A DNA stretch of 33,261 bases from Candidatus Zixiibacteriota bacterium (GTDB lineage: Bacteria; Zixibacteria; MSB-5A5; GN15; FEB-12). Below the pieces are notes generated by a model. That model saw only the letters and a program-made list of their open reading frames with translations, made no database searches and had not been told where the DNA came from. Both the position numbers and the translations under genes were made by a program. This document shows, in pieces, positions 13,023 through 32,486 of the stretch; position 1 is the stretch's first letter, and every line of letters starts with the position of its first letter. Location of the stretch: assembly GCA_020348905.1 (NCBI GenBank), contig CP070756.1, positions 2,172,526 to 2,205,786 of the forward strand, read 5' to 3'.

Positions 13023-15626
13023 ATGATACCAAAGAGACTCGGTTACGCCGCCGTTTGTACGTATTTCATTATCAGCCTTCTCACCAGCCCCGTTGCCGGT
13101 CGAGCAATGCCCGGACCGGAGGAGGATAAGACACCCTCGGTTTTGCCGCTGACGACCGCCCCCGCTTTCGGAATCGTAGCGCATCGCGTCGGGCAAATGG
13201 TCCTATGCATCCGCAACGACGGCAACTTTGGAGCCTGCTGGCAACAAACACCGGTAGACTTCTATACCGGCGAGGAGATCCCGTCGTGCGAATTCCCAAA
13301 AGGATCAAACACCCATTATTTGTGGGGTTCCTCTTTCTGGATTGGTGCCGTTGTGAATCACGACACACTGGTTTCGACCGGCTGGTCCGGGTGGTTCTCA
13401 GTCGGCAGCGAATTCGCGCCCGAACAAGACGGCCTGGGTGAAATCGACCGGCGCGCCATGGGATCAATTGACCCCGCCATGGCCGCCGATGCCATCAGCG
13501 AAGAGGACTATATTAGCGTTTACTACGACACTCTGACAACAGGTGTGATTCCCGATTACTTCGGACGACCGCACATACCGCTCAATATAGAAGTCACCGA
13601 GCGGTCGTACGCCTGGTCGTACTCTTATGCCGAAGACTTTATTCTTTTTGATTATACCATTCAAAATATCGGCCGGGAGCGGCTCAGCGATGTCTATATG
13701 GGTATCTTCGTCGATGGAGATGTCTACTGGGGTCAGACGAGCTTGTTTGGTATGACAGACGATATCTGCGGGTTTGTGCAGGCTTTTTCCAGCAGCAGAG
13801 ATGGGTGCGTGTTCTGGGACACCGTCAACATTGCCTGGATAGCCGATAACGACGGAGACCCCTATTTGGGGGCCTATAATGATAGGTCAGTGACAGGAGT
13901 GACGGGTACTCGGATTATCCGTACGCCCGCCGACTCGCTCGATGTTTCTTTCAACTGGTGGATTAGTAACTGGGACACAGAATTGGACTTCGGGCCTCGG
14001 GAGATCGCCGGAGTGGGTCGATTACAAGAAGATTTCCGGGATTTCGGTACCGGTGGACTGGGTACCCCCGAGGGAGACCGCAATGCTTACTACCAGATGC
14101 GGAACATGGAATTCGATTACGACCAGATCTACACGGCCACGATTGGTGCCACCGATCCCAACTGGCTCCAACCGACTCAATCATTGGCCGGTAACTTTGC
14201 CGATGGCTTTGACACGCGATACCTGCTCTCTTTCGGTCCCTTCGATATTGACCCCGGCGAGAGCCTGCCCATATCCTTCGCCTATGTCGGCGGCGACAAT
14301 TTCCATGTCGATCCGAATAATATCAACAACCTTCCCGACAACCCGGATACGTATTACGAAAACGTCGATTTTTCCGACCTGGCCCTCAACGCTGCCTGGG
14401 CCGGGCGAGTCTACGACAACCCCGGCGTAGATACCGATGGTGACGGCTATTCCGGAAAGGTCCGCTTCTGCTGCGATGACGGCAGAGCTTACAGCTTCAG
14501 TTCAATCGATGACACCCTGGAGATTGACGGTTTCAGCAGCAACGGCTGCCAGTTAACGTGGTATGAAGGGGACGGCGTACCTGATTTTCGCGCCGCTTCA
14601 CCCCCCCCGGGCCCGGACTTCTGGCTGGAGCCAAGTGTCGGAAAGATTCGGGTACGTATCAACGGCCAGCGCTCGGAAACCGCCAGGGACGTCTTTTCCG
14701 GCCGGCCTGATTTCGAAGGATACCGGGTCTATGTCGGCCGCGATGAAAGAGAATCCAGCTTCAGTGTGGTCGGATCCTACGACCGCGAGGATTACAATAA
14801 ATTCGTCTGGACTGGACTCGACTTCAGGCTTTTCGACATTCCTTATTCGCTGGATTCACTGAGGTGCCTTTACGGAGCCTCCTGCGAAGACTCGCTGTTC
14901 GATCCCATGGTATACACACGCGACCACCCTTACCGGCATCCGCTTTTTGCCGATTCGCTATTTTACTTTGACGCCCAGGATTACAACGCATCGGAGTTCG
15001 GTAGCCTGACACCGATCAGGAAAATCTACCCCGACCAACCGTATCCTTCGTCGGTGAATCCGGATTCGGCCGGTGCTGATGAATTGACCGATGACGGTCG
15101 TCTCAAATACTTCGAATACGAGATCGAGATCGACGGCCTTTTGCCAACGGTGCCCTATTATGTAAGTGTCACCGCCTTCGATTTCGGCTCCCCGGAGGAA
15201 GACCTGGAAGCCCTGGAAAGCGCCATTGCCCGCAACGTCAAAATGGCTTATGCCGAGAGAACCGCCGGTGATGTACTGTCCGGGAATCTTAAGGCTTACG
15301 TTTATCCGAATCCATATCGTTCCGATGGCGACTACCGCGATACTGGCTTTGAGGGCCGTACGGAAACCGATCGTCCCGATCACCGTGTTCGGGCGATAAA
15401 TTTCGCTAATCTGCCCCCCCGGTGCTCTATTAGCATATACTCGCTGGACGGCGACCTCGTTCGCAGGTTAGAACACGACGCCGATCCGGCCGACCCAACC
15501 TCGTCACACGAGACGTGGAATCTCATCACCCGCAACACCCAGATGGTGGTCTCCGGTCTTTACTACTGGGTGGTGGAGGCCGAAAACGGCAATACGCAGG
15601 TGGGAAAATTGGTCATAATCATGTGA
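13023..15626 (+). CDS. Large secreted protein P1 with FlgD-Ig/T9SS-type C-terminal domain (tandem paralog 1 of 5)
   Basis: This is a protein of unknown function, 867 residues. Residues 1-26 are a signal peptide ending at SPVAG. Then come a conserved core (HRVGQMVLCIRNDGNFG at 54-70; FWIGAVV near 105; YAWSYSYAEDFILFDY at 196-211), an EF-hand-like acidic loop DNDGD (275-279), and NWWISN (311-316). A second acidic loop of thrombospondin-3 type follows (DTDGDG, 470-475), then a fibronectin-III-like region (FEGYRVY at 564-570 to YYVSVTAFDFGSP at 712-724). The C-terminal module runs from YPNPYR (761-766) to the end and resembles sorting domains used for surface export in the FCB group. Paired cysteines occur at 249/262, 483-484/509 and 615/621. 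No catalytic motif was recognised. GGAGG precedes the ATG at 6 bases. Closest relative in the window is P2. Confidence 0.85.
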   Translation: MIPKRLGYAAVCTYFIISLLTSPVAGRAMPGPEEDKTPSVLPLTTAPAFGIVAHRVGQMVLCIRNDGNFGACWQQTPVDFYTGEEIPSCEFPKGSNTHYLWGSSFWIGAVVNHDTLVSTGWSGWFSVGSEFAPEQDGLGEIDRRAMGSIDPAMAADAISEEDYISVYYDTLTTGVIPDYFGRPHIPLNIEVTERSYAWSYSYAEDFILFDYTIQNIGRERLSDVYMGIFVDGDVYWGQTSLFGMTDDICGFVQAFSSSRDGCVFWDTVNIAWIADNDGDPYLGAYNDRSVTGVTGTRIIRTPADSLDVSFNWWISNWDTELDFGPREIAGVGRLQEDFRDFGTGGLGTPEGDRNAYYQMRNMEFDYDQIYTATIGATDPNWLQPTQSLAGNFADGFDTRYLLSFGPFDIDPGESLPISFAYVGGDNFHVDPNNINNLPDNPDTYYENVDFSDLALNAAWAGRVYDNPGVDTDGDGYSGKVRFCCDDGRAYSFSSIDDTLEIDGFSSNGCQLTWYEGDGVPDFRAASPPPGPDFWLEPSVGKIRVRINGQRSETARDVFSGRPDFEGYRVYVGRDERESSFSVVGSYDREDYNKFVWTGLDFRLFDIPYSLDSLRCLYGASCEDSLFDPMVYTRDHPYRHPLFADSLFYFDAQDYNASEFGSLTPIRKIYPDQPYPSSVNPDSAGADELTDDGRLKYFEYEIEIDGLLPTVPYYVSVTAFDFGSPEEDLEALESAIARNVKMAYAERTAGDVLSGNLKAYVYPNPYRSDGDYRDTGFEGRTETDRPDHRVRAINFANLPPRCSISIYSLDGDLVRRLEHDADPADPTSSHETWNLITRNTQMVVSGLYYWVVEAENGNTQVGKLVIIM

Positions 15627-15713
15627 ACGTCTGGCTCCGCATGCGGCCACACAGGACGCCCGGTCTTATTCCGGCTCGTTAATTTCTCGCCAGCCGGACC
15701 AACATGAAAAACG

Positions 15714-15742
15714 TTGTTTTAATCCCAACAGCCTCTTATATT
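15714..15742 (+). promoter_or_regulatory. Candidate promoter for paralog P2
   Basis: TTGTTT (15714-15719) and TATATT (15737-15742) are separated by exactly 17 bases, in the 212-base gap between P1 and the P2 start. The -10 element matches consensus at five of six positions and the -35 at three. The same pair, with a 16-base spacer, occurs before the MFS gene on the other strand. Confidence 0.4.
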
Positions 15743-15838
15743 GCTTGCTTCAGACAGGCGTTTTGATCGATGCTAAACATTTGCTCCGGTTCAAACGTCT
15801 GTATTCTACATCGTGGTATGGCTCAGGAAGGTCGAGGG

Positions 15839-18439
15839 ATGTCAAAGAAGGTCTTAATTGGAGCAATCTGCTCATATTTTGCAATCCTCTTTTTTTGTAA
15901 CCCCGCCGCTGGTCGGGTAATACCGGAATTTGCCGGCGAGAAGGACCCTACCCTGTCGTCACTTACATTAACTCCCGCTTACGGCTCGGTGGGGCATCGC
16001 ATCGGCCAGATGGTTCTGTGTCTTAATAACAACGGAACTTTCGGAACCGGCTTCTCCAACTCAACGGCCGACTTCTTCACGGGCGAACCGGTGCCTTCAT
16101 GTGAGTTCCCCAAAGAGTCAAATACCAGGTACCTCTACGCGGCTGCCTTCTGGATTGGGGCCGTTGTCGGACGCGACACCCTTGTGTCATGCGCCGCCAC
16201 GGGATGGTCATGGGGTAGAGAATTCGCTCCTGATCAGATCGGCATCGGCGACATCGTCAAGCGATCCATGGGGTCGATCGACCCCACCCTGGCGGCCGAG
16301 GCCGTCAGTGAGGAAGATTACATCATGGTGTACATGGATACCATGACCAGTGGCGTCGAGCCCGATTACTACGGTCGACCGCATATCCCGCTTAATATCG
16401 AGGTAACCCAGAATTCCTATGCCTGGTCTTATTCGTACGCTGAAGATTTTGTCCTCTTTGATTACATCGTTCGCAATATCGGCTCAAACCACCTCGAAAA
16501 TGTATACATGGGCATCTATGTGGACGCCGACGTTTATTGGGGTCAAAGCAGTGCCGGCGGTGGCTATCGCGACGACATCTGCGGATTTGTCGAGGCCCTG
16601 CCGCATGAGAGCGATGGTTGCTTATTCTGGGACACGGTCAATATCGCCTGGATAGCCGATAACGACGGAGATCCCGATGGCGGTGTTTACGGCGAGCAAT
16701 CGGTGACGGGTGTAACCGGGACCCGGATCATCCGTACCCCGGGTGACTTTTTGGATGTTTCATTCAACTGGTGGATCAGCAACTCTTCCGCCGCATTGGA
16801 TTTTGGCCCTCGTGAGCGATCATTCCTGGGCCGGTTGGACGATGAATTCAGGGATTTCGGTACCGGTGGCCTGGGTACCCCCATGGGTGATGCCAACTCT
16901 TACTATCAAATGCGCAACATGGAGTTCGATTATGACCAGGTCTACACCGCTACCATAGGTGCCACCGATCCCGTGTGGCTTCAGCCACTTCAGGAGCTCG
17001 CCGGTGACTTCGCCAACGGTTTTGACACGCGCTACCTGCTCTCTTTCGGGCCTTTCGACATCTACCCCGGTGAGAGACTGCCGATATCATTCGCTTATGT
17101 AGCGGGAGCCGATTTTCACGTCGATCCGAACAACATCAATAACTTGCCCAACAATCCAGATCTGTACTACGATAATGTCGATTTTTCCGATCTTGGACTC
17201 AATGCCGCCTGGGCTGGCAGAATCTATGATAACCCCGGCGTCGACACCGACGATGATGGTGATTTTGGAAAGGTTCGTTTCTGCTGCAGCGACTCGACTG
17301 CCTACAGTCTCGATTCACTTGGTGACACCATCAACATCGAAGGCTTCGACAGTGAAGATTGTGAACTGATCTGGTATGAAGGCGACGGTGTCCCTGATTT
17401 CCGTGGTGCCTCACCTCCTCCCGCGCCCGAGTTCTGGCTCGAGCCACGCGTTGGCGAGATACGGGTGCGTATCAACGGCCAGCGTGCGGAAACCGCCAAG
17501 GATGTCTTCTCGCGTCGGATCGATTTTGAGGGATACCGGGTTTACGTTGGCCGCGACGAAAGAGAATCGAGCTTCAGCGTGGTTGGCTCCTACGACCGTG
17601 AGGACTACAACAAATTCGTCTGGGATGGATCCGATTTTACTCTATTCGATATTCCCTATACGCTGGACTCGCTCCGGTGCCTTTATGGCACGTCATGTCA
17701 GGATTCGTTGTTTGACCCCCTGGTATACAGCCGCGACAATCCCTATCGCCACCCGCTTTTCGCCGACTCGGTATTTTACTTTACTGCCCAGGATTTCAAC
17801 GTGGCCCAATTCGGATCGCTCACGCCAATACGTAAAATCTATCCGGAGCAGCCCTACCCATCGGCGTTGAACCCTGATTCAGCCCGGGCTGACGAGTTGA
17901 CCGAAGACGGCCGTCTCAAGTATTTCGAGTACGAAATAATCATCGAAGGCCTGCTGCCTACCGTACCGTATTACATTAATGTCACCGCCTTTGATTTCGG
18001 CTCGCCGGAGGCCGATCTGGAAGCCCTCGAAAGCGCCGTTACCCGCGGCGCACAGATAGCCTATGCTGATAAGACAGCCGGCGACGTTATGTCGGGCGGA
18101 CTTCAGGTATACGTATATCCCAACCCGTACCGGGCCGACGCCGACTACCGCGATCGCGGTTTTGAGGGCCGTATGGATGCCGACCGACCCGATGACCGTG
18201 TCCGCACGATCCATTTCGCCAACCTGCCGTCCCGGTGCACCATCACCGTATATTCCCTCGACGGTGACCTCGTGCGACAGATTGAACACGACGCCGATCC
18301 GAACGATCCCACCTCATCGCACGAGACGTGGAATCTCATCACCCGTAACACCCAGATGGTGGTATCCGGTCTCTATTATTGGGTAGTTGAAGCCGAGGAC
18401 GGTCAAACGCAAATCGGCAAGTTAGTTATAATCATGTGA
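15839..18439 (+). CDS. Large secreted protein P2 with FlgD-Ig/T9SS-type C-terminal domain (tandem paralog 2 of 5)
   Basis: An 866-residue protein of unknown function, the nearest relative of P1 and alignable along its whole length. The ATG at 15839 was chosen because AGGAAGG (15825-15831) lies 7 bases upstream and a signal peptide follows directly (core VLIGAICSYFAILFFCNPAAG). The open frame extends upstream to 15770 but that segment would bury the signal peptide. It has the same domain order as P1: N-terminal HRIGQMVLC block, DNDGDPDGG loop, DVSFNWWISN, DTDDDGDFGK acidic loop, fibronectin-III-like section and YPNPYR-type C-terminal module ending GKLVIIM. All P1 cysteine pairs are kept (DDICGF with DGCLF; RFCC with DCELIW; RCLYGTSCQD). 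A repeat-rich DNA relationship with P1 is visible at the 3' end, where long stretches are nearly identical. Confidence 0.85.
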   Translation: MSKKVLIGAICSYFAILFFCNPAAGRVIPEFAGEKDPTLSSLTLTPAYGSVGHRIGQMVLCLNNNGTFGTGFSNSTADFFTGEPVPSCEFPKESNTRYLYAAAFWIGAVVGRDTLVSCAATGWSWGREFAPDQIGIGDIVKRSMGSIDPTLAAEAVSEEDYIMVYMDTMTSGVEPDYYGRPHIPLNIEVTQNSYAWSYSYAEDFVLFDYIVRNIGSNHLENVYMGIYVDADVYWGQSSAGGGYRDDICGFVEALPHESDGCLFWDTVNIAWIADNDGDPDGGVYGEQSVTGVTGTRIIRTPGDFLDVSFNWWISNSSAALDFGPRERSFLGRLDDEFRDFGTGGLGTPMGDANSYYQMRNMEFDYDQVYTATIGATDPVWLQPLQELAGDFANGFDTRYLLSFGPFDIYPGERLPISFAYVAGADFHVDPNNINNLPNNPDLYYDNVDFSDLGLNAAWAGRIYDNPGVDTDDDGDFGKVRFCCSDSTAYSLDSLGDTINIEGFDSEDCELIWYEGDGVPDFRGASPPPAPEFWLEPRVGEIRVRINGQRAETAKDVFSRRIDFEGYRVYVGRDERESSFSVVGSYDREDYNKFVWDGSDFTLFDIPYTLDSLRCLYGTSCQDSLFDPLVYSRDNPYRHPLFADSVFYFTAQDFNVAQFGSLTPIRKIYPEQPYPSALNPDSARADELTEDGRLKYFEYEIIIEGLLPTVPYYINVTAFDFGSPEADLEALESAVTRGAQIAYADKTAGDVMSGGLQVYVYPNPYRADADYRDRGFEGRMDADRPDDRVRTIHFANLPSRCTITVYSLDGDLVRQIEHDADPNDPTSSHETWNLITRNTQMVVSGLYYWVVEAEDGQTQIGKLVIIM

Positions 18440-18595
18440 GTATTTGGCGTCACTCCGGGCGCAGTTTTCGCTGTTGACCGGTATGCGCCGGCGACACCGC
18501 ATCCCAGACGGCAGATTCTGCGCGGAGCATCCCGGTCAAGGGTGTAGAGTCGTCCCAACCAGCCAATTTCCAATATCTTAGCTCTGCCGGAAGAC

Positions 18596-18628
18596 TCCCA
18601 TTCGGGACCGGCCGGCCCGGGATTTTTT
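18596..18628 (+). terminator. Probable intrinsic terminator after P2
   Basis: A GC-rich hairpin with CGGG (18603-18606) and CC (18608-18609) pairs with GG (18614-18615) and CCCG (18616-18619) around a GGCC loop, with one bulged A. TCCC/GGGA may extend it outward as an alternative pairing. Six T follow at 18623-18628. The stem is imperfect but the hairpin plus T-run is typical. Confidence 0.65.
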
Positions 18629-18640
18629 GCCTGAAATATC

Positions 18641-18671
18641 TTGCTAACGAAATCAAAATATTGTAACTTTA
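18641..18671 (+). promoter_or_regulatory. Possible promoter of the P3-P4-P5 operon
   Basis: TTG at 18641-18643 lies 20 bases before TAACTTTA (18664-18671). This is one mismatch away from the TTG...TAnnTTTG pattern known for Bacteroidetes vegetative promoters, with the correct spacing. A sigma70 reading (TTGCTA, 17 bases, TAACTT) is also possible but poor. Only position between a terminator and the next gene makes it credible. Confidence 0.3.
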
Positions 18672-18679
18672 CGGCTTAA

Positions 18680-18710
18680 AACTTCAGGCGGTTTTCCGCC
18701 AAGTTTTATT
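18680..18710 (+). promoter_or_regulatory. Leader stem-loop before P3
   Basis: AACTT (18680-18684), two bulged bases, GGCGG (18687-18691), a TTTT loop, CCGCC (18696-18700) and AAGTT (18701-18705) form a ten-pair stem, followed by the T-rich TTATT. It lies about 65 bases before the P3 start. It may be a leader attenuator or a second terminator for P2; the sequence alone does not decide. Confidence 0.5.
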
Positions 18711-18773
18711 TAAACCAAACCAAGAGGATGAACGTCACAACTAAAAAACTTCCAAACTCAGAGTGTGAGAACC

Positions 18774-21326
18774 ATGAAAATTTTCAAAATCGTTGCGGTT
18801 ATTATCCTATTTGCACTGTTATTTTCCGGCTCGGCCTTCGGCCGCTGGTCACTGGAACTCGATGCTAAAAACAATGCGGCTACATCTCCCCTGGGCGCTG
18901 TAGACCCGGCCTATTGCACTGTATCGCATCGCATTGGCCAACTGGTGCTGGCGGTCAGCAACAAGGGTGTCTTGGCCGGCGTAACGGCCTGGTCAGATCC
19001 AACCGACTGCATCACAGGAGCCCAAAACAGGGATGCCGAATATCCCAAGGAATCCGCTATCGACTACTGCTTCGCATGCTGTTTCTGGATTGGGGCCGTA
19101 GTCGGACGTGACACGATGGTTTCCACCGGGGCGGATGGATGGATATCCAATTCCGAGGAGTTCCGTCCCGCCTACGAACCTTTCGGAAACCTCATCTACC
19201 GGAGCATTCGCTTCCCGGAACAGCCCGACCTCTTCGAGGGTGCTATCTCCGAGGAAGACTACATAGCAGTCTACTCTGATACCGCCGCATATGTGGATGA
19301 TAATGCCTGGGATGGCCTGCCCCACCGGCCTCTCAATATCGAAGTGACCCAGCGGTCTTTCGCCTGGTCCTATTCTTACGCCGAAGACTTCATTCTCTTT
19401 GACTACGAGATCAGGAACATTGGTGTGACGACCCTTGAAGATGTTTATATGGGTTTCTACAACGACAGTGACGTCGGCCTAAGGATCGACCAGCAGAGAC
19501 ACACCGACGACATCTGCGGATTCAGGGAAACCTTTACCAGTCTCTACGAAGGAGTATGCGAGTTCGAGGACACCGTAAACATCGCTTACATTGCTGACAA
19601 CGACGGCGACCCCGAAGGTGGCATTTATACCGATATCTCCTGCCCTGACGTAACTGGCATGAGAATCGTACGTACTCCGGCCGATGAACTCAATGTTTCT
19701 TTTAACTGGTGGATATCCAACGGCGATCCGGGAGCCGATTTCGGCCCCCGTGAGCGCGACGGCATCGGCCGTTGGCCCGAGGAATTCCGGGATTTTGGCA
19801 CCGGCGGTCTGGGTACACCGGAGGGTGACTACAACAAGTACTTCCAGCTGATGAACCAGGAATTCGACTTTGATCAGATTGAGTCCGCCACTATCGGGCC
19901 AACCGATGCCACCTGGCTCTATCCACCGCAGGAAGATATCGCCGACGTCGCCAATGGTTTCGACACCCGCTACCTCCTGTCATTCGGTCCTTTTGACATC
20001 GAACCGGGCCAGCGCCTGCCGATATCGTTCGCGTACGTTGCCGGGCAGGGATTCCATCAGGACCCGAACAATGTGAACAACCTCCCTTATAACCCGGATA
20101 TCTACTACGCCAACCTTGATTTTTCCGACCTGGCTCTAAACTCTACCTGGGCCGGCCGGGTATATGATAACCCCGGGGTGGACACCGATGGAGACGACAA
20201 CTTCGGCGAATTCCGGGTATGTTATTTCGACGTCGACAGCACCCAGGCCGATACTATCTGGTATAAAGGCGACGGGGTTCCTGATTTCCGTGGTGCCTCT
20301 CCTCCGCCGGCACCCGTCACCTGGCTGGAACCAGCCGTAGGCGGAATCAGGGTACGTTTCAACGGGTATCGTTCGGAAACCACCAGGGACGTCTTCTCCC
20401 GCATTGCCGACTGGGAAGGCTATCGAGTCTATGTTAGCCGCGATGAGCGCGAAGGAAGTTTCAGTGTGGTGGCCTCCTACGACAGGGAGGATTACAACAA
20501 GTATGTATATAATCCGGAGATGCTCCCCGAAGCCGGCTTTGAGCTGCGCGATATACCGTTTACGCTCGATTCTCTTCGGGCATTGTACGGTGACACTTTC
20601 GATCCGATGGCCCATAACCAGTCCAACCCCTTCCAGCACCCGGAGCATGTCGATTCACTGTTCTATTTCGAGCCACAGGATTTCAACGCCTCCGAGCTCG
20701 GCCGGGATACGCCCATCCGAAAGGTATACCCGGACCAGCCCTTCCCATCCAGTGAATTCATTGAAGAAATGGATCCGAGTGAGCTGACCGATGACGGCTA
20801 CATGAAGTATTACGAGTACGAGCTAGTTATTGACAGCCTGCTTCCCTCGGTCGAATGGTACGTGAGCGTAACTGCCTTCGACTTCGGCTCGCCGGAGTCG
20901 GACCTGCAGGCATTGGAATCGGCCAAATCGGTCGATGCTAAGGCGGCCTATCCGCTCAGTTCAGCGGAATTGGTGCAGAGCCAGAATCTAAAAGTTTTTA
21001 TATATCCAAATCCTTATAGGGCTGATGCCGGTTATCGCAGTGACGGGTTTGAGGGAAGAATGGATACGGACCGTCCCGATGACCGGGTACGCGAGATTCA
21101 TTTCGCTAATCTGCCTCCTAGGTGCACAATTAGAATATACTCGCTTGATGGTGACCTTGTGCGCGAATTGGAGCACGACGTTGATCCGTCCGACCCCGAA
21201 TCGACTCACCACATCTGGGATATGATCACAAGAAACACCCAAATGGTGGTCTCGGGCATCTACTTCTGGACGGTAGAAGCAGACAACGGCGAAACTCAGA
21301 TTGGCAAGCTAGTCGTCATCATGTAA
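18774..21326 (+). CDS. Large secreted protein P3 with FlgD-Ig/T9SS-type C-terminal domain (tandem paralog 3 of 5)
   Basis: An 850-residue protein of unknown function, more distant from P1 and P2 than they are from each other. The ATG at 18774 starts directly on a signal peptide (MKIFKIVAVIILFALL..., probable cleavage after SAFG); the GTG three codons earlier is possible. No good ribosome binding site is seen for either. The shared core is intact: SHRIGQLVLAV, FAWSYSYAEDFILFDYEI, DNDGDPEGG, NVSFNWWISN, DTDGDDNFGE, WEGYRVYVSRDER and a YPNPYR C-terminal module ending GKLVVIM. Cysteines differ: the pair in RCLYGASC is replaced by RALYGDTF, and the CC...C loop is reduced to a single cysteine in RVCYFD. 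A new cluster CFACC appears near residue 100. It is followed after 4 bases by P4, pointing to an operon. Confidence 0.85.
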   Translation: MKIFKIVAVIILFALLFSGSAFGRWSLELDAKNNAATSPLGAVDPAYCTVSHRIGQLVLAVSNKGVLAGVTAWSDPTDCITGAQNRDAEYPKESAIDYCFACCFWIGAVVGRDTMVSTGADGWISNSEEFRPAYEPFGNLIYRSIRFPEQPDLFEGAISEEDYIAVYSDTAAYVDDNAWDGLPHRPLNIEVTQRSFAWSYSYAEDFILFDYEIRNIGVTTLEDVYMGFYNDSDVGLRIDQQRHTDDICGFRETFTSLYEGVCEFEDTVNIAYIADNDGDPEGGIYTDISCPDVTGMRIVRTPADELNVSFNWWISNGDPGADFGPRERDGIGRWPEEFRDFGTGGLGTPEGDYNKYFQLMNQEFDFDQIESATIGPTDATWLYPPQEDIADVANGFDTRYLLSFGPFDIEPGQRLPISFAYVAGQGFHQDPNNVNNLPYNPDIYYANLDFSDLALNSTWAGRVYDNPGVDTDGDDNFGEFRVCYFDVDSTQADTIWYKGDGVPDFRGASPPPAPVTWLEPAVGGIRVRFNGYRSETTRDVFSRIADWEGYRVYVSRDEREGSFSVVASYDREDYNKYVYNPEMLPEAGFELRDIPFTLDSLRALYGDTFDPMAHNQSNPFQHPEHVDSLFYFEPQDFNASELGRDTPIRKVYPDQPFPSSEFIEEMDPSELTDDGYMKYYEYELVIDSLLPSVEWYVSVTAFDFGSPESDLQALESAKSVDAKAAYPLSSAELVQSQNLKVFIYPNPYRADAGYRSDGFEGRMDTDRPDDRVREIHFANLPPRCTIRIYSLDGDLVRELEHDVDPSDPESTHHIWDMITRNTQMVVSGIYFWTVEADNGETQIGKLVVIM

Positions 21327-21330
21327 GACC

Positions 21331-23934
21331 ATGATGAACCAATCGTTCTTCAAAAAGAACCGCCGGAAAGTGGTGCTTCCGGCGGTCCTTGTGTTACTTT
21401 TTAACGCCGTGGGTGCCGATTTGGCCTTCACCCGCGACGCTAAACTGGAGCGTCTCGAGAGGATTAAGGACTACTCTGTAACTCACACGTCGTCCTCCGC
21501 ACCTATTATCGAGTACGCCGCCCACCGGCAGGGCAAGATGGCTCTACTTATCGGCAACAACGGAACCTTTGGATCTGAGGGAGCCAGTCCTATAGATGTT
21601 TTGACGGGCGAGAATCACCCGGCCTGCGTATATCCCAAAAACAGCGACCTGGTTTACCTGTGGGTCGCCGCTCTGTGGGTCGGAGCCGTCGTGGGACGAG
21701 ATACGGCGGTGAGTGTCGGATCCGAGGACTGGTACTGCGCTCATGAATTCTGGCCCGACATGCCTCCCTTTGGCGAATTTGAGTTCCAGTCAATAAATAA
21801 CTCCAGCCCGTTTTACTCTGAAGATGCTTACTCGGAGCAAGATATCATCTGTCGCTATACCGACACCATTTCCGACCGAAATGTAACCGATCCGGATGAA
21901 TGCGATCCCGGTTCTCACATCCCCTTAAATATCAAGTCGACCCAGCGGTCGATGTCCTGGAGCTATGAATATGCCGACGATTTCATTCTCTTTGACTACC
22001 AGATAGAAAATATCGGAAGAGATCGCCTCCGTGAGGTCTACATGGGTATCTGGGTGGACGGCGATGTCTGGCACGTTAATAATCAGGATTCCGATCACTG
22101 GACCGATGACCTGGTTGGTTTCTATCAGTCCCATCCGGCCCCGGAGGGCTGTGGTTTTGTGGACACCATTAACATTGCCTACCACAGCGATAACGATGGT
22201 GACCCTATCGACGGCCAATGGAATGATGAATCGCCGAGATCGGCCGTCGGAGTGCGGGTGGTGCGCACACCGTCGGACTCGCTGAAGTATTCCTATAACT
22301 GGTGGATCGTAACCTACGGTGACCCGAGCCGGGATTTCGGCCCCCGCCAGAGAGAAACACCGGACGATCCTTTCCGTGACCTCGACGGCCGCCTGGGTCC
22401 CCCGGTGGGTGACGAGAACAAATACTATGTTCTCAAGCACGACGAGTTCGATTACGATCTGCTTTTTACAGCTATCGACCACAGCGATAGCGGTCGGGGA
22501 TGGCTGCCTCCACCGGAAAATGCCGAGAACTACGCCGACGGCTACGATGTTCGCAATCTGCTCTCGTTCGGACCGTTCGAAATTGACCCCGGCGAGAAAC
22601 TGCCCATTTCGTTCGCCTGGATCGGGGGGGAAAATATTCACGTCAATCCTGATGATTTTGAAGATTTCAACCCGTACCGGCCTTCGCTCTTCTACGAAAA
22701 GCTCAATTTTGCACCACTGGCTCTCAACTCCCGCTGGGCCTCGTGGATCTACGACAACCCCGGCGTCGATACCGATGGCGATGGCGACAGCGGGCAGTAT
22801 CGCATCTGCTGTTACGATACTACCGTTTCCGACACCGGCCTGGTCTTTGGCAGGTGCGATACCTCCTGGCATAAAGGCGACGGTGTCCCCGACTTCCGCG
22901 GCGCCTCGCCGCCTCCTGCTCCCGAAGTGCGGGTTGAACCGGAAGTGGGTACCCTCCACGTGAGATTTAACGGCCTGTTAACCGAAACTACCGAGGACTA
23001 CTTCGCCAAGAACGTCGATTTCGAAGGCTATCGCGTCTACCTGAGCCGTGATGAACGCCCCTCGAGTTTCTATATGGTAGGCTCGTATGACCGGGAAGAT
23101 TTCAACAAGTACGTGTGGAATCTCGAAGAGGAAACATTCCGACTGTATGACATTCCTTTCACCCGCGACGAGTTGCAGTTGCTGTATGGTGACCCTCTCG
23201 GCATAGAAGATTTTGATCCACTGGTCTTCACCAGGGACAATCCTTACCGGCATCCTGATTTTTCCGATTCGGTCTACTTTTTCGTGACACAGGACTTTAA
23301 TCAGTCTGAGTTCGGAGTAAACACGCCCATTCGCAAGGTCTATCCTGACCAGCCATACCCCTCTAATCTGAACCCGCAACAGGCCCTGCCCGAGGAGCTG
23401 ACCGAAGACGGTCGGCTAAAGTACTTCGAATACGAGATGACGGTTGAGAACGTGCTTCCCACGGTTCCATATTATGTCAGCGTAACGTCCTTTGATTTCG
23501 GTTCGCCCGAGATCGGCATGGCACCGCTGGAATCATCGGTACTAAATAACTCTATTGTTGCCTACCCTTTGGCCTCGGTCGATGACGTCCTCGAGAACGA
23601 CCTCAAAGTATACGTGTATCCCAACCCGTACCGTACCGATGCTCAGTATGAGGCGGGTGGATTTGAGAATCGTCGCGGAACCGAATCCGAAGATCGTATG
23701 CGCAGGATTCATTTCGCCAATCTGCCCCCCGTGTGTAAGATATACATATACTCTCTTGACGGTGACTTGGTGCGGGAAATCGATCATAATTTCCCTGAAG
23801 GGGGGCCGGAGGCGATGCACGATACCTGGAACCTTATTACCCGCAACACGCAGGCCGCTGTCAGCGGTTTGTACTACTGGGTGGTCGAGTCCGAATATGG
23901 CACCCAGATGGGCAAATTCGTCATAATCAAGTAG
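21331..23934 (+). CDS. Large secreted protein P4 with FlgD-Ig/T9SS-type C-terminal domain (tandem paralog 4 of 5)
   Basis: An 867-residue protein of unknown function. Two adjacent ATGs (21331, 21334) start it only 4 bases after the P3 stop, so translation is probably coupled. The N-terminus is basic (FKKNRRK) with a hydrophobic core VVLPAVLVLLFNAVGA, a signal peptide. Compared with P1-P3 it has the subgroup features RSMSWSYEYADDFILFDYQI, the acidic loop SDNDGDPIDG, NWWIVTYGDPSRDFGPRQ, HSDSGRGWLPPPE and a second acidic loop DTDGDGDSGQ followed by CC and a DTGLVFGRC insertion. The fibronectin-III-like section and the YPNPYR module, ending GKFVIIK, are present. The cysteine pair of the RCLYGASC region is absent. 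It is most similar to P5, seven bases downstream. Confidence 0.85.
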   Translation: MMNQSFFKKNRRKVVLPAVLVLLFNAVGADLAFTRDAKLERLERIKDYSVTHTSSSAPIIEYAAHRQGKMALLIGNNGTFGSEGASPIDVLTGENHPACVYPKNSDLVYLWVAALWVGAVVGRDTAVSVGSEDWYCAHEFWPDMPPFGEFEFQSINNSSPFYSEDAYSEQDIICRYTDTISDRNVTDPDECDPGSHIPLNIKSTQRSMSWSYEYADDFILFDYQIENIGRDRLREVYMGIWVDGDVWHVNNQDSDHWTDDLVGFYQSHPAPEGCGFVDTINIAYHSDNDGDPIDGQWNDESPRSAVGVRVVRTPSDSLKYSYNWWIVTYGDPSRDFGPRQRETPDDPFRDLDGRLGPPVGDENKYYVLKHDEFDYDLLFTAIDHSDSGRGWLPPPENAENYADGYDVRNLLSFGPFEIDPGEKLPISFAWIGGENIHVNPDDFEDFNPYRPSLFYEKLNFAPLALNSRWASWIYDNPGVDTDGDGDSGQYRICCYDTTVSDTGLVFGRCDTSWHKGDGVPDFRGASPPPAPEVRVEPEVGTLHVRFNGLLTETTEDYFAKNVDFEGYRVYLSRDERPSSFYMVGSYDREDFNKYVWNLEEETFRLYDIPFTRDELQLLYGDPLGIEDFDPLVFTRDNPYRHPDFSDSVYFFVTQDFNQSEFGVNTPIRKVYPDQPYPSNLNPQQALPEELTEDGRLKYFEYEMTVENVLPTVPYYVSVTSFDFGSPEIGMAPLESSVLNNSIVAYPLASVDDVLENDLKVYVYPNPYRTDAQYEAGGFENRRGTESEDRMRRIHFANLPPVCKIYIYSLDGDLVREIDHNFPEGGPEAMHDTWNLITRNTQAAVSGLYYWVVESEYGTQMGKFVIIK

Positions 23935-23941
23935 TACCACG

Positions 23942-26539
23942 ATGTCCTGTTTTCGCCAAGGAACATACCGCCACGGGCCGCTGCTGCTGGCGGTATTTGT
24001 CATGCTTCTCATGGCGAGCCCCGGCAACGCCAGAGACATTAAATCCGAGAAGCTGCTGGCCGGCAAAAGCGCCACTGCCAGCCTATCCGCCACCGACCCG
24101 GTGGTGGGTTACGCACGACATTCTCAGGGCAACATGCAATTGATAATCAGAAATAATGGGACTTTCGGTTCCGAATGGGACAATGTCTGGGATCCGTTGA
24201 CGGGCGAGAGATGGGAATCGTGCGTTTATCCCAAAAACAGCGATCTCATTTATCTTTATGTCTGCGCCCTGTGGATTGGCGCCGTAGTAGGCCGCGATAC
24301 CCTGGTCTCATGCGGAACCGAAGACATGTACTGCTCCTACGAATTCTGGCCCGATATCCAACCGTTCGGGGACCCGCAGTACCAGTCGATAGACCCCACC
24401 AGCCAATACTACTCAGAGGAGGCTTACTCGGAACAAGACATTCTCTGCGAATTCACCGACACGCTCGACAATCTGGGTTTGACCAATACATGGTGGTGCG
24501 ACGGCGCTACTCCGCACACCCCGCTCAATATAAAGGTGTCCCAGCGGTCAATGGCCTGGAGCTACGATTACGCCGATGATTTCATCCTCTTCGATTACCA
24601 GATCGAGAATATCGGCACCCAGCGGCTCAGCCAGGTCTACATGGGAATATGGCTCGATGGTTGCGCCTTCCATGTCACCAGGGCATGGTATCGCTACTGG
24701 ACCGATGACATTGTAGGTTTCTATCGCACCCACCCCGCCGACGGAGACTGCGGTTTTCTGGACACGATCAACATCGCCTACCACGCTGACAACGATGGTG
24801 ACCCGGATGAAGAAACCGGGGAATGGACCGACTTTTCTCCCAAGTCTGTGGTGGGCGTCAGGGTGGTGCGCACTCCGGCCGACTCGCTCAGGTATTCCTT
24901 CAACTGGTGGATAATGAACTACGACGACCCCACGCGTGACTTCGGCCCCCGTCAGCGAGGCACCGAGGAGGATCCATTTCGCGATTTCGGGACGCGCCTG
25001 GGCACACCTGTCGGCGATGAAAACCGGTATTATATTCTTCGCCACGATGAGTTCGACTACGATCTGCTCACGGTGGCCCTGGATCACAGCGATAGTGGTC
25101 GCGGCTGGTTGCCACCCCCTGAAGACGCCGAGATGTACGCCACCGGATTTGACGTTCGTTACCTGCTTTCGTTCGGGCCGTTCGAGATCAATCCCGGAGA
25201 AAAACTGCCCATCTCGTTCGCCTGGGTAGGCGGCGAGAACTTTCATGTCGAACCGTCCGATTTTGAATCGTTCAACCCGTACTGGCCGTCCGACTTCTAT
25301 AACAAGCTCAATTTCTCCGAGCTTGCAAGCAACTCCCGCTGGGCCTCCTGGATATACGATAATCCCGGTGTGGACACTGATGGTGACGGCGACAGCGGTC
25401 AATATCGCGTCTGCTGCTACGACACCACCGTCACCGATACCGGGCTGGTGCTCAGCGCCTGTGACACCACCTGGTACCAGGGCGATGGTGTGCCGGACTT
25501 CAGGGGTGCCTCCCCGCCGCCGGCACCGAAATTATGGATTGAGTCTCAGGTTGGATCACTTCGTATCAGGTTCAACGGAACCCGGTCCGAAACAACCCGT
25601 GACCCGTTTTCCGGTGTACCGGACTTTGAGGGCTATCGGGTGTACATCGGACGCGATGATCGCCTCCCCAGCCTTAGCGTGGTTGCTTCGTACGACCGCG
25701 AGAATTTCAACAAGCATGTCTGGAACGGAGCGGTGGATGCCTTCGAGTTGATTGACCTGCCGTTCACCCGGGAAGAACTGCAACAACTGTACGGCGACCC
25801 AATCGGGGCCGATGATTTTGATCCGCTCTTTTATACCAGCACCAACCCGTTCTTTCATCCCCAATTTCCCGATTCACTGTTTTATTTCACAACTCAGGAT
25901 TATAACCAGTCCGAGCTGGGCGTTACAACCCCTATTCGCAAAGTATATCCCGATCAACCCTACCCGTCGAGTCTCCATCCCGACTCGGCCCGTCCTGAGG
26001 ACCTTACCGAGGAAGGTTATCTCAAGTATTTTGAGTACGAGCTTATCCTCGAGAATCTGTTGCCGACTATTCCCTACTATGTTAACGTGACGGTATTCGA
26101 TTTTGGGTCACCCCGGATGGACCTGGATCCGCTGGAAACATCGGTACTCAACGGTCTCGAGATCGGCTACGCCCTTACACCCGCTGAGGCTGTTGAGGAA
26201 CAGAACCTGAAAGTCTTCGTCTACCCCAATCCGTATCGATCCGATGCCCGGTATGAGATGGAGGGATTCGAAAACCGCGACGGAACCGAGGCGGCCGATC
26301 GGATGCGGCGGATTCACTTCGCCAACCTGCCCCGGGTGTGCAAGATATCAATCTACTCCATCGACGGCGACCTCGTGCGCGAAATCGACCACTACTATCC
26401 CGAGGGCGGTCCCCATGCCATGCACGACACCTGGAACCTGATAACGCGCAATACCCAGGCGGCCGTGAGCGGTCTCTATTACTGGGTGGTTGAATCGGAC
26501 CAGGGCACACAGATGGGCAAGCTGGTTATAATCAGGTAA
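23942..26539 (+). CDS. Large secreted protein P5 with FlgD-Ig/T9SS-type C-terminal domain (tandem paralog 5 of 5)
   Basis: An 865-residue protein of unknown function and sister of P4. The ATG at 23942 lies 7 bases after the P4 stop. Its signal peptide has the core LLLAVFVMLLMASPGNA. The diagnostic blocks of the P4 subgroup are present: RSMAWSYDYADDFILFDYQI, ADNDGDPDEE, NWWIMNYDDPTRDFGPRQ, HSDSGRGWLPPPE, DTDGDGDSGQ with CC, and DTGLVLSAC. It carries extra cysteines that P4 lacks, in YVCALWIG and in SCGTEDMYCSYEF. The C-terminal module starts FVYPNPYR and ends GKLVIIR. The stop codon abuts the stop codon of the convergent MFS gene with no base between, and no terminator for this operon is visible. 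Confidence 0.85.
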   Translation: MSCFRQGTYRHGPLLLAVFVMLLMASPGNARDIKSEKLLAGKSATASLSATDPVVGYARHSQGNMQLIIRNNGTFGSEWDNVWDPLTGERWESCVYPKNSDLIYLYVCALWIGAVVGRDTLVSCGTEDMYCSYEFWPDIQPFGDPQYQSIDPTSQYYSEEAYSEQDILCEFTDTLDNLGLTNTWWCDGATPHTPLNIKVSQRSMAWSYDYADDFILFDYQIENIGTQRLSQVYMGIWLDGCAFHVTRAWYRYWTDDIVGFYRTHPADGDCGFLDTINIAYHADNDGDPDEETGEWTDFSPKSVVGVRVVRTPADSLRYSFNWWIMNYDDPTRDFGPRQRGTEEDPFRDFGTRLGTPVGDENRYYILRHDEFDYDLLTVALDHSDSGRGWLPPPEDAEMYATGFDVRYLLSFGPFEINPGEKLPISFAWVGGENFHVEPSDFESFNPYWPSDFYNKLNFSELASNSRWASWIYDNPGVDTDGDGDSGQYRVCCYDTTVTDTGLVLSACDTTWYQGDGVPDFRGASPPPAPKLWIESQVGSLRIRFNGTRSETTRDPFSGVPDFEGYRVYIGRDDRLPSLSVVASYDRENFNKHVWNGAVDAFELIDLPFTREELQQLYGDPIGADDFDPLFYTSTNPFFHPQFPDSLFYFTTQDYNQSELGVTTPIRKVYPDQPYPSSLHPDSARPEDLTEEGYLKYFEYELILENLLPTIPYYVNVTVFDFGSPRMDLDPLETSVLNGLEIGYALTPAEAVEEQNLKVFVYPNPYRSDARYEMEGFENRDGTEAADRMRRIHFANLPRVCKISIYSIDGDLVREIDHYYPEGGPHAMHDTWNLITRNTQAAVSGLYYWVVESDQGTQMGKLVIIR

Positions 26540-27854: not shown

Positions 27855-30842
27855 TTATCCGGTAAGGGCAGCCAGACGACGCCTGACATCTTCGGTAATA
27901 TCGATCTCAACGTCGGCTTCACCCCAGTACCGCAGCACCTCTTCGAGAAGCAGGATGGCCTCGCGATCATTACCCAGGCCTTGTTCGGCGATACCGAGAT
28001 AATAGAGTGCTCGAATATACCGGTGAGAGGCAACCCTGACGTTAAACTTCTGAAGGGACTGCTCTATATTTTGTTTGCCTTCCGAAAAGTCGCCTGTAAG
28101 AACCTGGAAAATTCCCAGGGCCCGACCTTCATCATAGACATTCACGTTCTTTTCCGCCGCCATGCGGTCTTTGTATATGCTGATCAATTCTGTGGTGTCA
28201 GCTTCACCATGAGCATAGAACATGCGTTTGATGTTGTCAACCACGTGCCACAGCTCTGGAGGAAGACGGCGCTGCATTTCTTCGGCGGTCTCAATTAAAA
28301 CCGGTTCGAGCTCGCCGGCCCTGGTGTGGTCCCAGACGACCGCCGTCAAAGGATAATCAATCCGGGCAAAGGCTGGTGCCCAGTCATGCGACTGTTTCAG
28401 GTAAAACATGGCACTGTCTTCGTTGCCGTAGTGGTGATGGTAAGTAGCCAGCTGGGTCAGGGCATGGAAGATCAGGTTGCTGTCGCTGGTCAGGATAGCC
28501 TGCTGGCAAGCCTGGTAGGAGAACCTCAGCGCCCGCTTGAATTTTCCATCCCAGATACTGAGGTCAGCCAGCTGCCGGTAATATGCACGCAGCCAGTAGG
28601 GGTCATCACCACTGACCTCCCTCAGCTTTTCGATTTCCCGTTGTGCACCGTCGAAGTCCCTCTTGGCCACGTAAAGGTTGCTCATTCGAAAGCGGGCTGT
28701 CTGGTGGTCGGGGAATCTTGTCAACAACTGCCCCAGTTCGCCTATGGCCTCATCAACCCTATCTTGCGTGGCGTATATCCGGGACAGCATCATGTACGGT
28801 TCGGGTGACTCGGGATGATACTTCTTGATGAGCTGAGAATACTCGATGGCCTCCTCGAAAAGGTCAGCCTTCTCATAGATGGCGGCATATTGACTGAGGG
28901 CCAACTGATATGTCGGGTCAATATGTAAGGCCGTGTCAAGATGAGCAAAGGCCTTGGCCGTATCACCGGTAAACACATTTACCAGGAGGGCATATATGGC
29001 GTGGCCTTCCTTATCGTCGGGATAGCGCTTGACAAAAGAAGCCAGCTTGATAAAAGCATTGTCGAATTCCGGATCCAGCCAGATATCGGAGTAGACCTCC
29101 AGCAGATCGCGATCGCGGGTAGGAAGTTTGCCTTCATACCGCCTGGCCATGGAGAAGTACTTCGCTCCTTCCTGCTGCATATTCTGAAAGATATAACACA
29201 TCCCGATTCGCATGTACGGCAGCGCAAAAGTGGAATCGATGGCCAGGGCCTGGTTGAACTCCTCAATGGCTTCGTCATAAAGCTCCAGATACATCTTGTC
29301 AACACCGACGCGATAATGCCGATAAGCTTCGGGGGAAGACGACGTATAAGTAGCCACCTTGCGGTCTTCCATATCCTTGCCGAGGTTCAGTGAAGACGCG
29401 ATCTTGTAAGTGAGGCTGTCAACCAGCGTAAAGGGATCATCACCTACAACTTTTTCGCCGAATATTATATTGCCCGTAGCAATCTCCTGCAGCCGAGCGT
29501 CGATCCTGATCTGGTCGCCGAGTTTATAGAACGCTCCCGATAGAAGGTTCACCGCACCCAGAGTACTGGCCGCCTCGACGCACTCGTCGAAGGTGTGGTT
29601 GGTCTTCTTCTCCTCGGGAAAACAATCGATAATCCTCTCGCGGCTTATGATAGTTATTGCTTCCGCCTGAGCCAGGTCGGTCAGCAGAATCTCAGGAAGA
29701 CCTGTCTCGAGCCAGTCCCATTGCGGATCGCCGGTCTTGTTCTCAAATCCCAGAATAGCAAGGGTGTTAGACTGGGCTTTGAGCGCGGAAGATCTACCGG
29801 GCTGGGAACTATCCAGGTAAGCCATAACGGCAACAAATACCACCAGAGCCGCAACCAGCCACAAAGATAGCTGTTTCAGCCCGAATCTCGGTGAACCGGC
29901 CGCTCTGGCTGCGGCCGCGCTGCTCAACTCCGATGACACAGTGTCGCTGGAGCCGCTGTCGAACAAGCGACGCAGGTTCCTCAAATCAACCACCAGATCG
30001 CGCGTATCCTGATAACGGTCATCCGGGTCTTTGCGCAAACATTTGTCGATGATGCGCTCCAGTTCGGGAGGAACGTTGGCATTCTTCAAGCTCGGTGGCT
30101 CGTGCCTCGCCTCGAGAATCTTGGCTATGGTGGAGACAGAGGTGGGACCGGCAAACGGAAACTCACCGGTCGCCATTCGGTACAATAGAACTCCGAAAGA
30201 GAAGATGTCTGAACGGGTGTCAATCTTCTCGCCGCGCGATTGCTCCGGGGACATATACGAAACCGTGCCCAGAATCTTGCCCGCCTTGGTTAGTTCCTCC
30301 TTTTCAACGGTTCTCGTTTTGTCCTCGGTATCACCGCTGAACGCCGGTTCGATCGGCTTGGCCAGTCCGAAGTCCAGTATTTTGGGCACGCCGTCTTTAT
30401 CAATGATGACGTTGTCAGCTTTTATGTCGCGGTGGACAATATTCATTTTGTGCGCGGCTGAAAGGCCGGAGGCAACTTTCTCAGCCAGACGCACAACCGA
30501 CGCCATATCGGGCTGCCGACCGCGCAGATAGTTGAACAGCGACGTCCCTTCGATATATTCCATAACGATGTAATTCAGCTCGCGCTCCGATTGCGGATCC
30601 CTGGCGGTGCTGATATCATAGATGCTCATGACGTTGGGATGCGAAACCTGGGCGGCGGTGGTCGCCTCGCGGCGGAAACGCTCCTGACGATCGGGGCTGT
30701 CAAAGGCATCTTCAAGCAGCACTTTGAGGGCGACCTTTCGGTTCAACTTGGAATCCTCGGCCAGGTAAACCTCCCCCATACCGCCTTCCCCGAGCTTCCT
30801 GATTATCTCGAAATGCGCAAACTGCTGCCCTGATTCCAGCAT
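27855..30842 (-). CDS. Membrane-anchored Ser/Thr protein kinase with TolB/CsgG-like and TPR domains
   Basis: A 995-residue PknB-type kinase. Catalytic parts are complete: glycine loop GEGGMGEVY (18-26), VALK lysine at 40, HRDIKADN (137-144), DFG (157-159) and SPE (198-200). Residues ~275-320 are a serine/alanine-rich linker, and ~325-343 form a single membrane segment (LWLVAALVVFVAVMAYL). After it comes a domain starting LAILGFENKTGDPQWDWLE that resembles the TolB N-terminal/CsgG-like module found in many TPR-containing sensor proteins. From about residue 490 to near the end are TPR-type helical repeats (for example the LYDEAIEEFNQALAIDSTFA unit). The kinase would be cytoplasmic and the repeats periplasmic, if orientation is standard. 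AAGGA eight bases before the ATG lies inside the C-terminal codons of the phosphatase gene, so the two are co-expressed. Ligand and targets are unknown. Confidence 0.93.
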   Translation of the reverse strand: MLESGQQFAHFEIIRKLGEGGMGEVYLAEDSKLNRKVALKVLLEDAFDSPDRQERFRREATTAAQVSHPNVMSIYDISTARDPQSERELNYIVMEYIEGTSLFNYLRGRQPDMASVVRLAEKVASGLSAAHKMNIVHRDIKADNVIIDKDGVPKILDFGLAKPIEPAFSGDTEDKTRTVEKEELTKAGKILGTVSYMSPEQSRGEKIDTRSDIFSFGVLLYRMATGEFPFAGPTSVSTIAKILEARHEPPSLKNANVPPELERIIDKCLRKDPDDRYQDTRDLVVDLRNLRRLFDSGSSDTVSSELSSAAAARAAGSPRFGLKQLSLWLVAALVVFVAVMAYLDSSQPGRSSALKAQSNTLAILGFENKTGDPQWDWLETGLPEILLTDLAQAEAITIISRERIIDCFPEEKKTNHTFDECVEAASTLGAVNLLSGAFYKLGDQIRIDARLQEIATGNIIFGEKVVGDDPFTLVDSLTYKIASSLNLGKDMEDRKVATYTSSSPEAYRHYRVGVDKMYLELYDEAIEEFNQALAIDSTFALPYMRIGMCYIFQNMQQEGAKYFSMARRYEGKLPTRDRDLLEVYSDIWLDPEFDNAFIKLASFVKRYPDDKEGHAIYALLVNVFTGDTAKAFAHLDTALHIDPTYQLALSQYAAIYEKADLFEEAIEYSQLIKKYHPESPEPYMMLSRIYATQDRVDEAIGELGQLLTRFPDHQTARFRMSNLYVAKRDFDGAQREIEKLREVSGDDPYWLRAYYRQLADLSIWDGKFKRALRFSYQACQQAILTSDSNLIFHALTQLATYHHHYGNEDSAMFYLKQSHDWAPAFARIDYPLTAVVWDHTRAGELEPVLIETAEEMQRRLPPELWHVVDNIKRMFYAHGEADTTELISIYKDRMAAEKNVNVYDEGRALGIFQVLTGDFSEGKQNIEQSLQKFNVRVASHRYIRALYYLGIAEQGLGNDREAILLLEEVLRYWGEADVEIDITEDVRRRLAALTG

Positions 30843-30845
30843 AAC

Positions 30846-30995
30846 TTACATCCTTTTTATTGCGAGCATGGTTATATCATCTGACCTGGGTGAATCTTCC
30901 GCAAATTCCACGACGTCATCCACAATCGACTCAATGACATCACAGCAGGACTTGTCTCTGACCTTGCTAAACAGCCGCTCCAGTCGATCATCGCC
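30846..30995 (-). pseudogene. In-frame C-terminal remainder of the PP2C phosphatase behind a TAA stop
   Basis: Directly after the TAA at 30996-30998 the same reading frame stays open for 49 codons. It reads GDDRLERLFSKVRDK and later SPRSDDITMLAIKRM, then stops at 30846-30848. GDDRLERLF and DDITMLAI are the standard closing motifs of SpoIIE-type PP2C domains, so this is the missing end of the upstream gene and not an independent gene. A tyrosine codon (TAT or TAC) in place of TAA would restore an intact protein of 546 residues. This stretch also carries the ribosome binding site of the kinase. Confidence 0.85.
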
Positions 30996-32486
30996 TTAAT
31001 GCGTGCCATCCAGATCGGCTTCAACCACACCGTCAGTGAAGACGAGCAACATATCGCCCGGATCGAGCTCGACTGTTTCCTCCTGCCAGTCGGAAAAGTC
31101 AAAGGCACCAATCATGGTCCCCGATGGCTCCAGGTGCTGGACGGTTCCATCCCTGCGTACCAGAAGAGGTGGATTGTGCCCGGCATTAATATAGGTAAGC
31201 CGGTGCCTTTGACCATCAATAATTCCGGCGAACACGGTTGCAAAGTCTTCCGGGGCGCTGTAATTGAATAACTGTCGCGAAACTTGCTTTACCACCCGGA
31301 TGAGTTCCAGGTTGGACTCTTCGTACAGAATCCGGAAGGATGCCAGGATATTGGACATCAGCAGGGCGCCACCCATCCCTTTGCCGCTGACATCAGCAAC
31401 TACGAATACGAGTCTGCCGTCAGGCAGCTTGGCCAGATCATACAGATCTCCGCCCACCATCCGGCATTGCTCCTGGAAGGCATGGACGTCATATCCCGGC
31501 AGTTGTGGAATATTCCTGGCCAGAAGGTTGCGCTGAATAGAGGACGCTCTTCTCAATTCGGCCGCGAAGATTTCCCTCTCGTGTCGCTCCCGCATTAGTT
31601 CGTAATTCAACAGACGTGATGCAATCAGGTTACCGAAAGTGGCCAGCAGATGCAGATAATCATCGTTATACTGGTGCACCGGGTTGGTCGTATCGAGATA
31701 GAGAATCCCCAGAACGACCCCACCGTCGAATAGCGGCACGGCCATAGCCGAGCCGATATGGGAGCGGATTATTGATTCCTGACGGGCAAATTTCGGATCG
31801 TCATGCGGGTCTATCAGTATGGAATTCTTCTGTTCGAGTATCTCCCCTACAATGGTGCGGGATAAACTGAATTCGCCCGGGTCCTTGCCACCCGGCAGAA
31901 GGCAGGCAGCAGTGGCAATCTCCCGGTCATTCTCGGTGGTGGTCAGCACCGCCAGTCGCTCGGCCGGAATGACTCGGTTAACGAGTTTGAGGGCGTATTC
32001 CAGCATTTCTTCCTGAGGTTCCGGAAGTACCAGTATCTTGGCCAGTTCAAAAAGGGTCGGGAGCACCTCAGGGAGGTCCTTCACCTTGGCCGGAAGCGGC
32101 TTTGAAGCTTGGTTGAGCGAAAGGAAAACCGATTTCTCAGGGTCGTTCTCAGCCAGCTTGGTTGTTCGGGGACGGCTTATGCTGCTTCCGCCGGTGTCGG
32201 GACAAATCTTGAATTCTGCGACACCGACCACAACTTGGTCGCCAATGTTCAGCCTGATGCTCTCCGAGATGCGCTCCCCGTTGACAATGGTGCCATTATA
32301 GCTGTCCTGGTCGGTGATAAAGCAGGTTCGGCCATCAGGTTCCACTTTGAGGATGGCGTGGGTCCTGGACACCGTGCCATCATTGATGACGAAATCGGAA
32401 TCAGAAGCACGGCCAATCCTGTACTCACCCGGTTGCAGTGGCCAGGAATGAAAACGAATACCGTCGGTACCTACTAATCTCAACAT
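30996..32486 (-). CDS. FHA-GAF-PP2C (SpoIIE-type) serine phosphatase, interrupted by an in-frame stop
   Basis: A 496-residue cytoplasmic signalling phosphatase in three parts. Residues 1-95 are an FHA phosphothreonine-binding domain (YRIGRASDSDFVI, SRTHA, NGTIVNG). About 145-300 form a GAF sensor domain (VLPTLFELAK to LLATFGNLIASRLL). From ~310 there is a SpoIIE-type PP2C domain with metal-binding aspartates in GGDLYD (345-350), ADVSGKG (364-370) and FTDGVVEA (D485). The protein stops at residue 496, just before the last ~50 residues that complete the PP2C fold; these are encoded in the same frame after the stop. The truncated form would lose the final DD motif that ligates metal, so it is probably inactive unless the stop is read through. 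The gene lies between a glycosyltransferase-like gene (41-base gap) and a Ser/Thr kinase that it probably opposes. Confidence 0.9.
   Translation of the reverse strand: MLRLVGTDGIRFHSWPLQPGEYRIGRASDSDFVINDGTVSRTHAILKVEPDGRTCFITDQDSYNGTIVNGERISESIRLNIGDQVVVGVAEFKICPDTGGSSISRPRTTKLAENDPEKSVFLSLNQASKPLPAKVKDLPEVLPTLFELAKILVLPEPQEEMLEYALKLVNRVIPAERLAVLTTTENDREIATAACLLPGGKDPGEFSLSRTIVGEILEQKNSILIDPHDDPKFARQESIIRSHIGSAMAVPLFDGGVVLGILYLDTTNPVHQYNDDYLHLLATFGNLIASRLLNYELMRERHEREIFAAELRRASSIQRNLLARNIPQLPGYDVHAFQEQCRMVGGDLYDLAKLPDGRLVFVVADVSGKGMGGALLMSNILASFRILYEESNLELIRVVKQVSRQLFNYSAPEDFATVFAGIIDGQRHRLTYINAGHNPPLLVRRDGTVQHLEPSGTMIGAFDFSDWQEETVELDPGDMLLVFTDGVVEADLDGTH

Follow-up and report, generated by a model that had tools for sequence, protein, structure and literature searches.

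An in-frame TAA 49 codons before the end of a conserved FHA-GAF-PP2C phosphatase gene in a Zixibacteria metagenome assembly

The window analyzed here, a stretch of 33,261 nucleotides (2172526-2205786 of CP070756.1) from Candidatus Zixiibacteriota bacterium, carries on its minus strand a putative FHA-GAF-PP2C phosphatase gene of the SpoIIE type that is closed by an in-frame TAA (30996..30998, minus strand, codon 497) shortly before its expected end. The stop is most likely a very recent nonsense mutation that creates a loss-of-function allele, a reading that is favored with moderate confidence. A single-base change in the sequenced lineage would have converted a conserved Tyr codon to TAA, provided that the base call is real. 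The product would then end at residue 496 without the final two helices, the final core strand, and one of the metal-ligand Asp residues, so that phosphatase activity would probably be lost while the FHA domain, the GAF domain, and the neighboring kinase stay intact. The allele may be private or restricted to a strain.

The ORF as sequenced (30996..32486, minus strand, 496 aa) starts at the ATG at 32486 and ends at the TAA. It features an FHA domain (residues 22-88), a GAF domain (about residues 159-291), and a SpoIIE-type PP2C domain that is cut after position 137 of the 192-position profile. The read-through frame (32486..30849, minus strand) has 546 codons. The residues before the TAA are ...EADLDGTH, and the frame continues after it with GDDRLERLF...SDDITMLAIKRM. 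This 49-codon continuation (30849..30995, minus strand) forms the C-terminus of the PP2C domain, with predicted helices at residues 498-508 and 514-529 and a predicted core strand at residues 538-545, and it includes the invariant DD of the SDDIT motif (residues 536-537; 30876..30881, minus strand). The tail ends with a TAA at the native position of the full-length frame (30848..30846, minus strand), which is followed by GTT and then by the ATG (30842) of the partner gene, an intact Ser/Thr protein kinase of 995 aa with TPR repeats (27855..30842, minus strand). The ORF matches Pfam SpoIIE positions 1-137, and the tail alone matches positions 146-191 of 192 with an E value of 4e-4. A whole-genome profile search with PF07228 recovers one full-length domain across the stop, flagged "1 TAA", and scores 158 bits across the stop versus 124 bits for the ORF alone, with a gathering cut-off of 25. 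Judged by these matches, the tail is more than a chance continuation of the frame. The initial annotation proposed that the TAA splits a PP2C gene 49 codons before its end and that the tail is the canonical closing segment of a SpoIIE-type domain; the frame, the Pfam matches, and the orthologue alignment confirm both.

On sequence grounds the gene belongs to a conserved group of FHA-GAF-PP2C phosphatase orthologues in the Zixibacteria, whose genes lie immediately upstream of a Ser/Thr kinase gene. In a full-frame alignment of 29 orthologues (546-553 codons long) codon 497 encodes Tyr in 24 and Phe in five, which agrees with the earlier observation that the TAA is one base away from a Tyr codon. 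All 29 run through the site into the tail and none ends there. A class-wide search of 132 genomes identified 76 orthologues, and none of the others has a stop at codon 497; one (G028) reaches a contig edge before the site, and the 74 others span it and are open there. The nearest relatives found share about 72% protein identity, one of them, at 72%, being encoded by CP070674.1 (L033, "Candidatus Zixiibacteriota bacterium"). A search of a plasmid collection gave no match. The kinase gene is located directly downstream of the phosphatase gene in most genomes, often overlapping its stop codon, and the two form an operon-like arrangement in most relatives. None of 49 kinase orthologues contains an internal stop. 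Separately, the kinase beside the G001 orthologue is cut at a join of 100 N.

The age of the stop was assessed from the constraint on the tail and the body of the gene. The tail is 49-51% identical to those of same-genus orthologues, and the body is 66-72% identical; the two intact same-genus tails share 45% identity. With the tree fixed from the body, the tail branch is 0.53, compared with 0.52 and 0.53 in the intact same-genus lineages. In the tail, nine columns reach at least 80% conservation across the family, and this copy retains every one of them; the branch of the PP2C region before the stop is among the shortest (rank 3 of 30). The tail branch, the retained columns, and the short pre-stop PP2C branch indicate that constraint lasted until very recently or still acts. 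Since the tail is undecayed, the stop is either very recent or not real, as had been argued from the sequence initially. The description of the tail as perfectly conserved holds for the strongly conserved columns and does not extend to the tail as a whole, given its level of identity. Outside the tail, the gene has been under strong constraint until recently, which is equally compatible with an error and with a very recent mutation.

A consensus or assembly error is a serious possibility, although it is not the preferred one; the gene would then be intact in the organism, and one wrong base, or a base from a minority strain, would account for the TAA. The nominal "single contig" of 3.27 Mb consists of binned metagenome contigs joined by 100 N into a pseudo-chromosome, with a completeness of 80.65%. 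Runs of exactly 100 N occur 17 times in 400 kb of this genome (G000:C1:1990001-2390000), and 15 and 14 times in stretches of the same-genus genomes G001 and G003, respectively, and the window is precisely one contig between two such runs. Because the contigs are joined in this way, gene order across the joins is untrustworthy. Isolated consensus errors are expected in a binned metagenome pseudo-chromosome, which argues against a real mutation, and the normal constraint on both tail and body is compatible with an error. An error is also favored by the metagenome genome G075, which has isolated TAAs in its orthologue of the phosphatase and in a response-regulator domain gene (G075:C38:305013). 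A scan for interruptions covered 1.2 Mb, or 37% of the genome, and 1018 ORFs, with stops closely trailed by an in-frame start codon escaping it; apart from this tail, no stop in the scanned sequence was followed by a convincing in-frame coding continuation, and no second case of a conserved UAA interruption emerged there. A single nonsense codon in 1.2 Mb is compatible with a real recent mutation and equally with random consensus errors at a low rate, which by our own estimate is about 2e-5 per base if some 4% of random substitutions yield a stop. Real genomes, too, normally have one nonsense gene in a thousand, which counts against an error. Inspection of the sequence revealed no homopolymer or repeat at the stop site, and about 100 domain instances in the genome show no other nonsense interruption among the matches listed. 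These include ABC (40), kinase (14), and response-regulator (39) domains, in which no internal stops were seen among the matches listed; the genome is therefore not riddled with nonsense errors. A frameshift-ridden assembly was rejected as a cause, as the broken ksgA (G000:2288226-2288564), which resembled a second case, owes its break to a 100-N join rather than to an error. Other matches from a same-genus tblastn search for interruptions were also rejected, as they are short antisense ORFs, N-terminal extensions, or tandem paralogues.

Two further features were recorded in the course of these searches. G003 contains a protein kinase domain with an internal TAG (G003:C1:2078430-2079197), in a frame of 572 codons with two kinase-domain matches. 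The window itself carries five tandem paralogous ORFs on the plus strand (13023-26539), about 850-890 aa long and each with a signal-like segment at the N-terminus. They share the C-terminus ...VVSGLYYWVVE...GKLVII, are also tandemly repeated in G003, and are apparently surface or secreted proteins.

The undecayed tail frame and its retained conserved residues would also be expected if the stop were sometimes decoded as an amino acid. Such UAA readthrough or recoding, an option raised by the initial annotation, would give two isoforms, one without the catalytic C-terminus, and it is highly improbable. TAA is an ordinary stop in this genome, ending 309 of the 985 stop-terminated ORFs in the 1.2 Mb (TGA ends 383 and TAG 293), and it is also the second stop of this gene. 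An 81-nt segment surrounding and following the stop is no more stably folded than shuffled sequences (z -0.23), none of the other orthologues has a stop at codon 497, and the scan of 37% of the genome turned up no further conserved interruption. Readthrough is unsupported because TAA is a normal stop, no recurrent interruption was found in the scanned 1.2 Mb, the RNA structure is not unusual, and the stop is not shared by other orthologues. A more specific version, in which UAA readthrough at low frequency yields active phosphatase as a minority product beside a catalytically dead FHA-GAF form, for dosage control of the adjacent kinase, is extremely improbable.

It is likewise very unlikely that the inactivation was selected, with a truncated FHA-GAF pseudophosphatase kept as a non-catalytic kinase partner and repeated losses in the family. 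The G075 orthologue (L176, G075:C54:136000-146000; orthologue at G075:140779) is interrupted independently by a TAA at codon 300, which lies between the GAF and PP2C domains and encodes Glu in 27 of 29 orthologues; its kinase is intact, and this case speaks for selected loss. Also in its favor, the same-genus genome G002, which is 97% complete, has no orthologue of the PP2C phosphatase or of the kinase; this double absence suggests that the two genes are gained or lost together. However, interruption of 2 of 76 orthologues differs too little from that of 0 of 49 kinases to stand out, and repeated selected loss was rejected since two cases are too few for recurrence above background. The stop here and that in G075 bear no positional relation to each other, at least one further gene of G075 is interrupted, and the 74 other orthologues that span the site are open there.

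The consequence of the preferred nonsense mutation for the product was examined with an AF2 model of the read-through frame, rather than of the truncated chain. The model has a mean pLDDT of 81, shows a PP2C alpha/beta sandwich, and places two helices and the last core strand in the tail. Its Foldseek matches include 3f79, 6k4e, 3ke6, and 5ucg, with E values down to 4.5e-14, and the best are SpoIIE/RsbU-type phosphatases. Aligned to SpoIIE (5mqh), the first Asp of the SDDIT motif, D536, matches chain position 216, which corresponds to Asp795 of B. subtilis SpoIIE when numbered by our own count from the VSGD motif. Mn in SpoIIE is coordinated by Asp628, Asp746, and Asp795 (PMC3517971; PMC5468089). 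The set of metal-ligand Asp residues is incomplete in the 496-residue product, with D347, D365, and D485 located before the stop and D536 after it; the set would be complete only with a spurious stop or with readthrough. Because the metal ligand D536 and the core strand are missing, this product is expected to be inactive and, judging from the alignment and the model, should be catalytically dead. The kinase has its own Shine-Dalgarno-like AAAAGGA within the tail (30851..30857, minus strand), 8 nt upstream of its ATG, which may act as a ribosome-binding site; kinase translation therefore need not depend on reading the tail. The earlier suggestion that the kinase is left unopposed exceeds the evidence and is not established, because a PF07228 profile search found five other full-length SpoIIE-type domains in the genome, and the operon-like pairing applies to most relatives.

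The gene is similar in sequence family and predicted fold to the SpoIIE/RsbU-type PP2C (PPM) Ser/Thr phosphatases (PF07228), which include B. subtilis SpoIIE, RssB and SiaA of P. aeruginosa, and Rv1364c, and it features the same Asp ligands, D347, D365, D485, and the tail D536, which is invariant in the alignment. It differs from them in its FHA-GAF N-terminus, in adjoining a TPR kinase gene, and in having its last 49 residues, including D536, beyond a stop codon. The isolated in-frame stop, the undecayed downstream frame, and the absence of any orthologue sharing the stop are also found in ordinary nonsense pseudogenes and in single-base consensus errors of metagenomes, from which no feature of this gene differs. 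Genes with stop-codon readthrough or stop reassignment are alike in having conserved coding sequence after the stop; here, unlike in such genes, the stop is not conserved, no recurrent interruption was found in the 1.2 Mb scanned, TAA is used normally, and no unusual structure follows the stop. The isolated stop is ordinary and does not constitute evidence for a new genetic mechanism. A lone nonsense codon in an N-joined metagenome-assembled genome, without reads, shows neither a lost signaling brake nor recoding, and caution is warranted in this respect. What the comparison documents is an FHA-GAF-PP2C phosphatase and kinase gene pair that is widely conserved across the Zixibacteria.
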